DNA of 62,329 nt, taken from positions 1 to 62,329 of IMG/VR virus record IMGVR_UViG_3300036790_000194; one strand, 5' to 3'. Positions 30,535 through 55,419 of the stretch are shown in pieces. Source of the stretch: a virus. The translations under genes and the position numbers were made by a program. Numbering within the stretch: position 1 is the first letter of the stretch; every line of letters begins with the position of its first letter. The notes beneath the pieces are model-generated. The model was not told where the DNA came from, made no database searches, and worked only from the letters and a program-made list of their open reading frames with translations.

Positions 30535-32166
30535 TCAAACATCATAGCGCGGTTCAGGCTTCGGACGAAAGGTCTTCGCCCGTAAATTCTCTGTGTCCGC
30601 CTCGGTGCCGAGTTGCAGGACGCCTTGGGCGCGGAGCCAAGTGAGACATTGGGAGACGCAATCTGTCAGATCAGCCCACTTGGACTTCGGAAACTGCGTC
30701 ACCTCGGTTATCACCATATCGGCCCATGCCCGGTCTGGCGCATAGACCATTCCATCCGCAAAGAGGGCTTGGCAGGCGTGAAGCCGTGCCACTTTATCGC
30801 CTCTCGGGTCGATCATGACGATTGTGCATTCGCCATTGCTCAGAAGGCGCCGAAGCTCAGCGGCCAGATCATTGCCCCGCGTCTTGTTCTCAATCAGCAC
30901 TATATCGAGCTTACGCCTGCGGATTGTGTCAGCGATTTTCTCGGCCAGGCCCCAGTATGGTTTGCGCTCCTGATCTGTGCGCATTTCGGGTGGGATGACG
31001 CCTCGAAGCGGCAACCGTGCCCGCCACGCTTCCATCAATACAGTTTTGGGCCGCTCACGCTGATCCGACCAAACTCCAAAAACGACCATGGCGTTCCAGG
31101 CATTTTCGTCTTTCTCGCCATAAGCCGTGTCGATTGACCCTACCAATAAGCTGCATGGCGGGAATGTCGTTGGCTGGCCATCCTGCGGCTCATAGCCAGG
31201 CGCTGGCCACGGCAACCACCAAATTCGTTCGATGATGTTGCCACCTCGCGGCGTTGGCGTTTGCTGAAACTGCGCCGCCGATGCAGTAGGCCCCATCGCG
31301 ATCTTGTCGCGCTCCACGACCTTCTCAGGATACCGCTCGGGAAATGCCAGCTCGTTTTCATCGGTTCGCGGATCGGTCCACCCGATGGACGTAGGTCCGC
31401 GCCAGTCGCCGTCAAACTCCATCGGAATGCAAAGGTGCGTGTAATCGGTCAGTTCGCCGATAATCGTGCCCGCCACGTCCTCTTCGTGGACGCGCTGCAT
31501 GATGACGACGATGGCCGAGGACTCAGGGTCGTTCATGCGGCTGGTGATGGATTCGCGGAACCAGCGGACCGTTTCCTGCCTCACAGTTTCCGATTCCGCC
31601 ATTTTGACGTTGTGCGGATCGTCCACAATTACGCGGTCCGCGCGCTCGCCAGTACCTACACCGCCAACCGACGAAGCGATCTTCCAGCCCGTACTGCGGT
31701 TGTAAACCTTATGCACCCCGACATGTGGCGGCAATCTTACGGTCTTTCCCCACAATTCCTGATACAATCGGCTTTTGAGGATGTCAGCGAACCTCCCATT
31801 GTCGCGCTCGGTGAGGTCGGGGGTGTACGAAAAGGCGAGATATCGAAGGCTCGGGTTCTCAAGCGGTCCCCATTCCCACGCCGGCCAAAACACCGAAGTC
31901 GCCAAGCTTTTCATAAAGCCGGGGGGCACATTCATAAGCAATCTGGTCAACTCACCAGACGAAACTGCTTCCAGATGCTCGCAGATTGCCTCAATCGCCC
32001 AACCCGACACATAAGGCCGGATAGGCTCGACAACGGGCCAGAATTCCTTGATGAACCGCAGAAGCTCGTTACTGCAAGCTCGGCGAACCTTCCGCTTCGA
32101 CAGTTCCGCCGCCATCTTTGCGGCCAAGACCAAGTTCTCGCGCGATACGCTTGCGTAACTCTCCAT
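30535..32166 (-). CDS. terL: Terminase large subunit
   Basis: 543 residues from ATG 32166, overlapping the small subunit gene by about 98 bases; an inner ATG at 32115 (MAAELSK) is a plausible alternative. Packaging ATPase motifs are visible: a Walker A variant NVPPGFMKS near 79-87, Walker B VIVDDPHN near 179-186, motif III VIMQRVHEEDV near 221-231. The C-terminal nuclease domain begins with LLVGSIDTAYGEKD, and later LIENKTRGNDL and VIDPRGDKVAR supply the acidic/basic residues expected of the RNase-H-like fold. It cuts and packages DNA into the prohead through the portal. Confidence 0.9.
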   Translation of the reverse strand: MESYASVSRENLVLAAKMAAELSKRKVRRACSNELLRFIKEFWPVVEPIRPYVSGWAIEAICEHLEAVSSGELTRLLMNVPPGFMKSLATSVFWPAWEWGPLENPSLRYLAFSYTPDLTERDNGRFADILKSRLYQELWGKTVRLPPHVGVHKVYNRSTGWKIASSVGGVGTGERADRVIVDDPHNVKMAESETVRQETVRWFRESITSRMNDPESSAIVVIMQRVHEEDVAGTIIGELTDYTHLCIPMEFDGDWRGPTSIGWTDPRTDENELAFPERYPEKVVERDKIAMGPTASAAQFQQTPTPRGGNIIERIWWLPWPAPGYEPQDGQPTTFPPCSLLVGSIDTAYGEKDENAWNAMVVFGVWSDQRERPKTVLMEAWRARLPLRGVIPPEMRTDQERKPYWGLAEKIADTIRRRKLDIVLIENKTRGNDLAAELRRLLSNGECTIVMIDPRGDKVARLHACQALFADGMVYAPDRAWADMVITEVTQFPKSKWADLTDCVSQCLTWLRAQGVLQLGTEADTENLRAKTFRPKPEPRYDV

Positions 32167-32542
32167 CCGTCAAAGCCTCGAAATCGCCCGGCTCGCCTAT
32201 CTCAGACCGCTCTACGAAGGCATAAACCTCGCGGCCCAATAACTCCATGCATTTAGCAGCGGGTCCATACGCGCCAGCCTCACGAGCCTCCTTGGCAAGC
32301 CCAATGGTCTGCTCGATCACCCATGCTTTTGTCAGCACCGTCTTAGTCGAAACATCGTGGCGAAGCCGGAGTTCGGCGATACGGGATGAAATCTTAGTGT
32401 GCTTTAGTAGCTTCGAGCCATTTACGTCACATGTTGCTGGGGCCGCATCAGGATAGCTCTCTTCGTAGGCATCGTGGGCCTTTTTACCCTGTACGATAGC
32501 CTGTGCGAACAGTTCGTGGCGTTGATTTTTAAGAAGCGGCAT
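32069..32542 (-). CDS. terS: Terminase small subunit
   Basis: 157 residues; a Terminase_2-like N-terminal helix-turn-helix (LKNQRHELFAQAIVQGKKAHDAYEESYPDAAPATCDVNGSKLLKHTKISSRI) typical of small terminase subunits, then a central helix, and a C-terminal arm (LTDGELRKRIARELGL) for oligomerisation or TerL contact. The small-then-large order is standard. It binds packaging DNA and regulates TerL. Confidence 0.8.
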   Translation of the reverse strand: MPLLKNQRHELFAQAIVQGKKAHDAYEESYPDAAPATCDVNGSKLLKHTKISSRIAELRLRHDVSTKTVLTKAWVIEQTIGLAKEAREAGAYGPAAKCMELLGREVYAFVERSEIGEPGDFEALTDGELRKRIARELGLGRKDGGGTVEAEGSPSLQ

Positions 32543-33029
32543 CGGGCTTTTCTATGGATTTGGAGATTGCAAACTCGCTGAAGGCTGGATCCAAGCGTCC
32601 GGCATCCTTCAAGACGATATTGGAGACGGGGGAGGGAATCGAACCCTTATTCGTCCGGTTTTGCAGACCGGCGTTGGACCCAGCCAATTCCCTCGTCAAT
32701 CGGGTTTTTTCAACATTGGAGGCGATAAGTTCTCGTTTATATTTTTCCATAAAAGCTTCCGCGTTGCGCGTGCGCTGCTGCTCCGCCAGCAAAAGTATAT
32801 ATAACTTAAAAACTGGCGTCTGCCTTCGCCGATCTTGTTCTGAAATCGAGGGGCGGCCCTCAAAGGGTGTATGTGTTATAGCGATGTCGGTAGCCACGCG
32901 AACGGTAGCATCCGCAGACATTTCCCATGGGTCGATTCGGACTACCAAACGCCCGAGAGCGCCCCACCGCCTCCAATAATAGCCCCATCGAAGGCTACTC
33001 AACGGTTGCCACGGAAAAACGATCCTCAT
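32529..33029 (-). CDS. Hypothetical protein with tRNA gene embedded in its 3' part
   Basis: 166 residues; AGGAG lies eight bases before ATG 33029, and the stop overlaps the start of terS by 14 bases, so translation through the whole frame is plausible. The N-terminus is Trp/Arg-rich (RWGYYWRRWGALGRLVV); the middle has a helical segment (FKLYILLLAEQQRTRNAEAFMEKYKREL). From about codon 112 the frame is shared with a tRNA-Cys gene on the same strand. Either the true coding part ends before the tRNA in the original gene, or the tRNA arose or inserted within it. No family recognised. Confidence 0.5.
   Translation of the reverse strand: MRIVFPWQPLSSLRWGYYWRRWGALGRLVVRIDPWEMSADATVRVATDIAITHTPFEGRPSISEQDRRRQTPVFKLYILLLAEQQRTRNAEAFMEKYKRELIASNVEKTRLTRELAGSNAGLQNRTNKGSIPSPVSNIVLKDAGRLDPAFSEFAISKSIEKPDAAS
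32621..32697 (-). tRNA. tRNA-Cys (anticodon GCA)
   Basis: Reading the minus strand from 32697: acceptor GACGAGG pairs with CCCCGTC at the other end (6 of 7 pairs); a D arm with TTGG/CCAA; a clean anticodon stem CCGGT/ACCGG with loop CTGCAAA (anticodon GCA); a T arm with loop TTCGATT; discriminator U, as expected for tRNA-Cys; and an encoded CCA at 32621-32623. Total 77 bases. It lies in the late operon within another reading frame. It may supply Cys tRNA for cysteine-containing secreted spikes. Confidence 0.85.
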
Positions 33030-33118: not shown

Positions 33119-33418
33119 CTATTCCGATTTTGTCGGTTTGTCACCAGCGCAACCTGTTGGGCGGTCTTCTTCAGGGAATTCATCCCAGTCCCGCACCCTT
33201 TTGAGAACTGGAAGGGCGCGCTTGAGAACGGACTCACGTTGGGCCGCATGCTGATCATTAGCCTGAAGCGCGGGTATTGCCAACTCCAACGCATTGAGTA
33301 AAAGCGCCCTATCTTCTTCCAGGCCGAAGATGATGGCACCGGCAGAGTCGGGTGATTTCGCAAATAGCTTGTATAAAGGGCCGTGCTCGTGTCGAAACCG
33401 CCAATTGTATATCCTCAT
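33119..33418 (-). CDS. Hypothetical protein
   Basis: 99 residues; AGGT lies just upstream of ATG 33418, which overlaps the TGA of a small upstream frame (ATGA). The sequence is largely helical (MRIYNWRFRHEHGPLYKLFAKSPD, then FGLEEDRALLLNALELAIPAL, QRESVLKRALPVLKRV) with a charged C-terminus. Near the start of the late operon, so possibly an early-late regulator; no family recognised. Confidence 0.5.
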   Translation of the reverse strand: MRIYNWRFRHEHGPLYKLFAKSPDSAGAIIFGLEEDRALLLNALELAIPALQANDQHAAQRESVLKRALPVLKRVRDWDEFPEEDRPTGCAGDKPTKSE

Positions 33419-33552: not shown

Positions 33553-33722
33553 CGTCGAGAACGGGGGCCATGGAACTCCAGCCTCACACAAGGTGTCGGC
33601 GGGAAGGCCTCAGCAAAAAAGCGAAGCGCCTCTACTCAGTCTAATCTTGTTAAGTGTTAGATCATAGCTCTTGGTGTAGAAGAATAATACTCTGCGCGCG
33701 CGCGCGCAAGCCCCCTTGGCGT
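33553..33722. other. Intergenic region between late-operon leader and repeat array
   Basis: About 170 bases without a convincing gene. On the minus strand a TATGAT hexamer (about 33667-33672) would make a fair -10 box, but no good -35 lies 16-18 bases upstream, so a late promoter here is only a suggestion. An alternating GC tract occupies 33691-33709, of a kind that can adopt Z-DNA. Confidence 0.35.
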
Positions 33723-33859
33723 TGCGAAACCGGAATCCACGTTTTCCGCCGTTCCGCACGGTTTCGCAGCGGTTCAGCAGGTGGTTTCGCATTTTCGATT
33801 TTTGCGAAACCGCACTGGTTTGATTCCGGTTTCGCAGCGGTTTCGCACCCGGTTCCGCA
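33723..33859. repeat. Iteron-like GGTTTCGCA array, candidate replication origin
   Basis: Six exact copies of the 9-base word GGTTTCGCA, four in direct orientation (33760-33768, 33783-33791, 33828-33836, 33839-33847) and two inverted (33723-33731, 33803-33811), with two near copies (33751-33758, 33851-33859). The array lies in a non-coding gap right after the 3' end of the RepA-like ATPase gene and next to an alternating GC tract. Iterons next to replication genes often serve as origins; an operator array for an unknown regulator is the alternative. Confidence 0.55.
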
Positions 33860-33874
33860 TGAAGGGTTTATTCA

Positions 33875-53812: not shown

Positions 53813-54730
53813 TTAGAGGCCGCTAACTGCTGTCCCGAAAATGTCCGCGTTGTTGCGGTTGTTGTAGCGGAACTCAAATTCCGCGACATACAATGGAAGA
53901 TATTTGCGACTGACTTTGTGGTAGGTGCCCATGATGCCGCGTTTCATAATCGACCAGAATCCTTCAATCGTGTTGGTGTGGATCGCACCGACAACGTAGT
54001 TCTTTGCCTGATGACGGACGGCGAAGTGCGGGTAATCAGGCGACAGGTGCCGATAGCCGGAATGCTCATCGGTATTGAGCAAGCTAACGTCCGTCGAAAC
54101 GACCTCGCGAACGAAACCTTCGAGAGTTTCCGTCTGAGTGTTTTCGATCACGCGGGCGACTACGTTGCCTTTGCGTTGTGCCGCGCCGATCACGATGGTT
54201 TTGTCAGAACCTTTGCCGCCCTGTCCGGGACTGGTGCTGCGCTTGTCGAAATGCCGGTTTTTGTCTTTGCCGCCGATGTAGGTTTCGTCCACTTCCACAA
54301 TGCCCATGAGCTTGCGGAACTTTTGGTCGGCCAGCCCGGCGCGAACGCGATGGCACATATGCCAAGCCGTGCGGTAAGAGCCGAAACCCATCGTGCGGTA
54401 AATCTGATGTGCCGAAACGCCTTTCTTGCTCGTAAGCATGGTGTGGATCACGCGAAACCACATCCGCAAGCCAACATTCGTGTTCTCAAAGATCGTGCCG
54501 ACCAGCACAGAGAAACGGTAGCCCGCCGATCCGCCCGGAGCGCAAGCCGTGCACTGCCAGTGGAACGGGCGCGAGGGCAGCTCATAGGGGCCTTCAACGC
54601 CGCAACGCGGACAATGAACCACGGTCGGCCAGCGATGCTTCGCCAGATACGCCATGCAGGCGTCATCCGTGGGGAACGCCGCTTCCCACTGGGGGACCGT
54701 CATCTGATGAATGCGTTTGCTCGTACCCAT
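53813..54730 (-). CDS. ISXO2/IS1595-type DDE transposase
   Basis: 305 residues. N-terminal zinc finger C40, C43, C60, C63 (VVHCPRCGVEGPY with WQCTACAPGG); DDE triad: D148 in EVDETYIGG, D221 in LNTDEHSGY, E256 in HTNTIEGFWSIMKRGIMG. This matches the ISXO2-like/IS1595 family. No clear terminal inverted repeats flank it, so it may be a stranded transposase or a domesticated gene. It faces the opposite way to the early operon, ending 3 bases from its last stop. Confidence 0.85.
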   Translation of the reverse strand: MGTSKRIHQMTVPQWEAAFPTDDACMAYLAKHRWPTVVHCPRCGVEGPYELPSRPFHWQCTACAPGGSAGYRFSVLVGTIFENTNVGLRMWFRVIHTMLTSKKGVSAHQIYRTMGFGSYRTAWHMCHRVRAGLADQKFRKLMGIVEVDETYIGGKDKNRHFDKRSTSPGQGGKGSDKTIVIGAAQRKGNVVARVIENTQTETLEGFVREVVSTDVSLLNTDEHSGYRHLSPDYPHFAVRHQAKNYVVGAIHTNTIEGFWSIMKRGIMGTYHKVSRKYLPLYVAEFEFRYNNRNNADIFGTAVSGL

Positions 54731-54754
54731 GGCCGTTTCCTCTTGAACGACCCA

Positions 54755-54783
54755 TATATAGCCAAAGGAAAATCTTATGTCAA
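54755..54783 (-). promoter_or_regulatory. Sigma70-type promoter of the transposase
   Basis: On the minus strand TTGACA (complement 54778-54783), a 17-base spacer and TATATA (complement 54755-54760): consensus-like. It lies 25 bases before the transposase ATG. Confidence 0.75.
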
Positions 54784-54850
54784 GTAGTGCACAATCGCCA
54801 TTTCTTTCCGGCGCATCTCTTGTGGGCTTGATCGCATTTATAGCAACACT

Positions 54851-54946
54851 ATGAGCGATTCAGTTGCGTGCGCCATCTGCGGGAAGGCGGCCCGGACAAT
54901 GGATTCCGCGAAGGGGCCAAAGGCCGTCAACGTGCGGCCCGTTTGA
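54851..54946 (+). CDS. Tiny ORF with CxxC motif upstream of Fic gene
   Basis: 31 residues: MSDSVACAICGKAARTM then DSAKGPKAVNV. It ends 11 bases before the Fic GTG. It could be a leader or a remnant of a zinc protein. Uncertain. Confidence 0.35.
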   Translation: MSDSVACAICGKAARTMDSAKGPKAVNVRPV

Positions 54947-54957
54947 CGGGTGCCCCA

Positions 54958-55419
54958 GTGAGCAATCTTACCGAGTTTATCCGCGAATCGAACAGGATCG
55001 AAGGTATTCTGCGCGATCCGACGAAGGCAGAGATGGTTGCCTCGGAATCCCTCCTTGGCGCCGTGGCAGTTACCATTGCCGATCTGAGCGCCTTTCAGAG
55101 AATTGTCGCGCCAGATAAGCCCCTGCGCAGCAAGCCCGGCATGAACGTCCGTGTGGGAACGCACATCGCGCCGTATGGCGGGGCGAAAATTCAGACTGAA
55201 CTAGCTGCGATTTGTATGCGCGCGAATGACGGCGACGGCCCATGGCTGCTTCATGTCGATTTCGAAACCCTCCATCCGTTCATGGACGGGAACGGACGAA
55301 CTGGACGCATTCTCTGGCTGTGGGCAATGAAACGGCATGGTGAATTGACGCGCGCGCTTGATCTGGGTTTTTTGCACTCGTTCTATTACCAGACGCTTGG
55401 CCTTGCGACCCGTACATGA
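54958..55419 (+). CDS. Fic-domain protein with N-terminal inhibitory motif
   Basis: 153 residues from GTG 54958 (an in-frame ATG at 54868 overlaps the small ORF). The Fic motif HPFMDGNGRTGRILW is complete (H, the D/E-GNGR and second R), so AMP transfer is possible. The first helix TEFIRESNRIEGIL contains SxxxEG, the inhibitory motif of class II Fic proteins, implying autoinhibition by the glutamate. The protein is short; it may modify a host target, or be a toxin-type component. No antitoxin beside it is clear. Confidence 0.75.
   Translation: MSNLTEFIRESNRIEGILRDPTKAEMVASESLLGAVAVTIADLSAFQRIVAPDKPLRSKPGMNVRVGTHIAPYGGAKIQTELAAICMRANDGDGPWLLHVDFETLHPFMDGNGRTGRILWLWAMKRHGELTRALDLGFLHSFYYQTLGLATRT

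Follow-up and report, generated by a model that had tools for sequence, protein, structure and literature searches.

An irregular tRNA-Cys gene within a sense open frame upstream of the terminase genes of a phage

When a tRNA gene lies wholly within an open frame of the same sense, is the locus a gene for a tRNA, a gene for a protein, or both? The question is raised by a window of 62,329 nt (positions 1 to 62,329 of IMG/VR virus record IMGVR_UViG_3300036790_000194), in which a tRNA-Cys(GCA) with U73 and an encoded CCA is located at 32697–32621 on the minus strand, just upstream of the packaging genes. On the same strand are the genes for the terminase small subunit (terS, 32069–32542; PHROG 51, E = 3.8e-10) and large subunit (terL, 30535–32166; identified in TerL searches), as well as an upstream ORF of 99 amino acids that has a strong ribosome site and no family (33119–33418; ORF list, profile search, and duplex energy). 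The latter is separated from terS by a gap of 576 nt, across which runs an open frame of 166 codons (33029–32529, minus strand) that contains the whole tRNA as codons ∼111–136. Farther upstream, positions 33690–33860 contain repeats of TTGCGAAACCG in either orientation, a pair of 34-nt copies spaced 68 nt apart, and a run of alternating CG; this region, located between replication and packaging genes, is a candidate replication origin. Elsewhere in the window (53813–55419), an IS1595-type transposase on the minus strand adjoins a Fic-domain ORF on the plus strand.

ARAGORN reports a tRNA-Cys(gca) on the minus strand with its 3′ end, including CCA, at 32621. A 5′ end at 32697 pairs better than the start reported by ARAGORN, 32694, with which the acceptor stem is poorly paired. 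Read from 32697, the acceptor 5′ strand GACGAGGG (32697–32690; 8 bp with one A.C mismatch, from sequence and a pairing test) is followed by a linker AA (or GA), a small D-arm UUGG-CUGGGU-CCAA (32687–32674; sequence and fold), CG, an anticodon arm CCGGU-CUGCAAA-ACCGG (32671–32655, with GCA at 32664–32662; ARAGORN and Rfam), a variable region of 7 nt (ACGAAUA), a T-arm AGGG-UUCGAUU-CCCU with an unbulged stem of 4 bp (32647–32633; Rfam and fold), and the acceptor 3′ strand CCCCCGUC with U73 and CCA (32632–32621; sequence and fold). There is neither a U8 nor the A14 of a canonical D-arm. CysRS is known to recognize tRNA-Cys mainly by the anticodon GCA and U73 (PMC7609411). A preliminary description of the locus had called it a full tRNA with a CCA end and Cys discriminator. 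The ARAGORN call, CCA, U73, and 5′ end at 32697 agree with that description, but the tRNA is not a regular one, as its score of 22.9 bits with the generic model RF00005 is under the curated cut-off of 29 bits.

The tRNA ancestry of the sequence is nevertheless certain because its best tRNA-clan match across all of Rfam, RF01852 (tRNA-Sec), has a score of 37.8 bits and E = 7e-6. It is not a member of RF01852 either, for which the cut-off is 47 and the anticodon is UCA instead of GCA. A covariance search indicative of a pseudogene had been named beforehand as the result that would count against a tRNA, and two scores below their cut-offs go halfway toward that result. The preference for RF01852 is not diagnostic because ordinary tRNA-Ser, -His, and -Trp genes on a Myxococcales MAG contig (JAPPOR010000183.1) also match this model best. 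We therefore rejected a tRNA-Sec identity, for which outscoring the generic model is little proof. That 22-kb contig has 19 tRNA genes within 8 kb, a dense array that is perhaps of viral origin.

Predicted energies favor an 8/4 over a 7/5 cloverleaf by 3.3 kcal/mol (−23.0 vs. −19.7 kcal/mol), and the two forms have one and two A.C mismatches, respectively. The minimum-energy fold is a non-cloverleaf hairpin (−26.3 kcal/mol) that competes with the cloverleaf; the anticodon arm, T-arm, and CCA end allow a cloverleaf, though not one of minimum energy. Overall, 8/4 is the best reading of the cloverleaf, in which the D-arm is small and U8 is missing. The two acceptor strands form 7 of 8 Watson-Crick pairs. 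Among random 26-mers drawn from the window, 0.065% pair this well in the same register, and 0.6% do so when nine registers are allowed. If G-U pairs are allowed, a second register reaches 6/7 because the 3′ strand is C-rich, so this pairing is moderate evidence against plain decay.

Several known groups of tRNAs resemble that of the window in part. The selC* tRNA-Cys of anaerobic bacteria, which are Sec-like 8/4 molecules (reviewed in PMC7609411), share with it the 8-bp acceptor and 4-bp T-stem, GCA, U73, and a higher score with the tRNA-Sec model than with the generic one; by pairing and energies, the window tRNA has the 8/4 branch, one of the two anticodons (GCA; the other is UCA), and the U73 expected of them. 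However, selC* tRNA-Cys also have a long variable arm and an A51a bulge in the T-stem. We dropped the assignment because both features were tested and are missing. In some lineages selB* or cysS* is downstream of selC* (PMC7609411). The tRNA here is phage-borne, and a search of the window for cysS, the gene for CysRS, had no hit. We regard it as a variant of phage tRNA-Cys that, if functional, acts as an ordinary one does. The allo-tRNA group, irregular members included (8/4 or 9/3), has the 8/4 acceptor branch in common with it, and one irregular allo-tRNA is reported to overlap an ORF, as here; by identity, however, allo-tRNAs are Ser or Ala tRNAs, and their variable and anticodon arms are long, as in tRNA-Sec (PMC7609411). 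Ordinary phage tRNA-Cys, those of Felixounavirus and DSS3_MAL1, have the same anticodon loop CUGCAAA (GCA), the T-arm, U73, and CCA, and the Felixounavirus copies are likewise near terL. Unlike the window tRNA, these controls score 43–65 bits with RF00005 and have a canonical D-arm and U8; likeness to other tRNA-Cys genes extends only from the anticodon arm to CCA. A DNA-pattern search yielded no exact match in the viral and genome contigs searched and one ordinary tRNA-Cys, in a Myxococcales MAG. Erwinia phage MM7 (L083, 571–647) has a tRNA-Cys-like gene near terL with a T-loop of UGGGAUU and 42.8 bits with RF00005 that ARAGORN misses; 14 Erwinia phage records match it, and the records listed carry no tRNA annotation.

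Relatives of the phage provide a comparison for the site itself. Relatives fetched by TerL are ∼53% identical or less, and portal and TerS scans detected distant ones only. When their loci were scanned with a covariance model made from six tRNA-Cys, low-scoring tRNA-Gly(UCC) genes with a short D-arm were found upstream of terS in L003 (3232–3303) and L016 (3644–3715), and another with an odd T-loop was found downstream of terL in L034 (4862–4937). A DNA pattern added L121 (3508–3579), a relative by synteny in that it shares the gene that lies between tRNA and terS, and in which terS is presumed to follow. Among the four, ARAGORN detects only that of L121. The genes of L003, L016, and L121 score 23–35 bits with RF00005 and align at 93–95% over exactly 72–73 nt while the adjacent gap is mostly unalignable; all three keep the same acceptor U.C mismatch, and their D-arm consists of a 4-bp stem and a loop of five bases. 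They lie in gaps of about 490–780 nt, similar in size to that of the window, with no long sense frame across the tRNA. Because identity is confined to the tRNA and the gaps are without such frames, low-scoring tRNAs near this site can be under selection, and their usual setting is non-coding. These tRNA-Gly resemble the window tRNA in low score, position upstream of terS, short D-arm, single acceptor mismatch, U73, and CCA, but the argument from conservation is limited in that they are Gly rather than Cys, 72 nt long, fit 7/5, lie outside a long sense frame, and, in L003 and L016, are separated from terS by about 1.8–2.1 kb, and in that no relative of the tRNA-Cys itself was found among the collections searched. 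Two other TerL relatives, L018 and L023, each carry a single array of ∼20 tRNA genes, unlike the window with its one tRNA.

Two histories could have left a tRNA that resembles others only in its 3′ half. One is decay: the locus would be a tRNA-Cys pseudogene with a recognizable 3′ half, and the frame would have grown through the dead gene, giving a real or spurious protein a tRNA-derived C-terminus. The low RF00005 score, loss of U8, mismatches, competing hairpin, and partial likeness are as expected from decay, and there is a parallel in Edaphobacter, where an allo-tRNA pseudogene overlaps a transposon-protein ORF (PMC7609411). Yet the acceptor 5′ strand still pairs, the anticodon arm, T-arm, U73, and CCA are intact, and relatives keep equally low-scoring tRNAs under selection; we consider decay unlikely, though a serious contender. 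The other history is integration, with the 3′ half a copied attachment sequence in the attP core of a temperate phage that inserts in a host tRNA-Cys. Two related prophages, in the contigs of L003 (ends L123/L124) and L006 (ends L125/L126), are inserted in the same host tRNA-Gly(UCC), each flanked on one side by the intact tRNA and on the other by a repeat of its last 47–49 bp, and these att cores have the same extent as the tRNA-Cys likeness. But their att sites are at the prophage ends while terS is in the middle, and the remnants, with acceptor pairing of 4/7 at best, lack the pairing 5′ strand that the window tRNA has; for these reasons it is probably not an attP core. Its position corresponds rather to that of the odd tRNA-Gly in the middle of L003, which is a separate gene, far from the ends, with the same anticodon as the host att tRNA. 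A phage integrase and an identical host tRNA 3′ half, as expected of an attP core, were both looked for without success: searches of the window detected neither a tyrosine nor a serine integrase, which is weak evidence because PF00589 has no match in L003 and L006 either, and the exact 3′ end is absent from the genomes searched, a set outside which the host species may lie. Integration is, in our estimate, very improbable.

Whether the frame encodes a protein is a separate matter. The preliminary description was right about its positions: the frame starts with ATG, has a ribosome site AGGAG with a duplex energy of −6.6 kcal/mol, and overlaps terS, which starts at 32542, by its last 14 nt, such that its stop is within terS. 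As a protein-coding gene, it fared less well. Its codon score is −0.009 bits/codon, compared with ∼0.18 for listed genes and −0.115 for ORFs in other frames. In windows of 60 codons, the frame beats the other five by 3–8 bits over codons ∼31–100, relative to a 90th percentile of 5.9 bits for a stop-free null, and has practically no lead over the tRNA part. Shuffling this stretch (one strand) yields an ORF of at least 150 codons 0.7% of the time. No homolog or family was found in phages, viral contigs, Pfam, or PHROGs. An AlphaFold model from the single sequence has a mean pLDDT of 48.6 and was set aside as uninformative except for one helix (residues 72–128, pLDDT up to ∼84). Elsewhere, the loci fetched contain 28 other phage tRNAs, 7 of which are inside a sense frame of at least 50 codons, the longest being 118, and in public records a CDS is drawn over tRNA-Cys sequence in Erwinia phage MM7 (gp014, over the copy described above) and wV8 (gene 55). 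The evidence is equivocal and leans toward a frame that is incidental or only partly real, and probably not translated, over a protein for which a tRNA-derived tail is essential. The sense overlap of tRNA and CDS is present on paper, but its translation is doubtful given ambiguous codon statistics that are weakest over the tRNA, the lack of a relative, and the gaps of like size and place in relatives, which have no long sense frame.

The main support for the frame as a gene is that it has a good ribosome site of its own and terS does not. The site of terS is nearly absent (−0.3 kcal/mol), which leaves coupling of terS to the upstream frame possible, but four other genes in the window also have weak sites (−1.7 kcal/mol or above). 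A dual-use locus, in which the protein of 166 amino acids is translated with its end coupled to terS and the same RNA is alternatively processed to a tRNA, the two fates being mutually exclusive, would account for the ribosome sites, the length of the frame (p ∼ 0.007), its lead over codons ∼31–100, and the predicted helix. The ambiguous codon score that vanishes over the tRNA, absence of homologs, low confidence of the model as a whole, and relatives' tRNAs in gaps without long sense frames go against it, and we judge such use quite unlikely. The most far-reaching version is to us the least credible. In it, an 8/4 tRNA-Cys that lacks a variable arm lies in sense within a translated protein whose stop is coupled to terS; a given transcript could yield either the excised tRNA or TerS, and tRNA processing would thereby control when, or to what level, packaging proceeds. 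It had also been proposed that excision of the tRNA destroys the mRNA. This does not follow, since cuts at 32697 and 32621 would leave a terS–terL message with a 78-nt leader; cutting would punctuate the packaging message rather than destroy it. Promoter and terminator scans gave about as many matches as shuffles do.

The reading that we favor, with about even confidence, is that of an irregular, probably functional phage tRNA-Cys gene in the terS–terL leader, with a frame through it that is mostly incidental. The clan-level E-value, preference for 8/4 over 7/5, acceptor pairing, and conserved low-scoring tRNA-Gly at the matching place in relatives argue for a functional tRNA; the RF00005 score, non-cloverleaf minimum-energy fold, and likeness that ends at the anticodon arm argue against it, and the ribosome site of the frame and its placement relative to terS argue against its being incidental. 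If the tRNA is functional, host RNase P and 3′ processing enzymes would release it from the late transcript and host CysRS would charge it via GCA and U73, after which it would supply or replace tRNA-Cys during infection. Codon supply is a weak reason to have it because Cys makes up 0.85% of codons in the listed genes (84 UGC and 27 UGU of 13,047). By analogy with phage tRNAs linked to escape from tRNA-cutting defenses (PMC10264068, PMC11555353), its purpose may instead be to replace a tRNA lost to such a defense of the host.

Phage tRNAs that score below usual cut-offs are easily missed or labeled pseudogenes. Because one group of phages repeatedly has low-scoring tRNAs upstream of terS, and one of these (Gly) is clearly conserved, the findings suggest that there is a class of odd-shaped phage tRNAs overlooked by annotation. 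An altered shape could matter in escape from tRNA-cutting defenses. If the sense overlap is also translated, tRNA processing would be tied to packaging.
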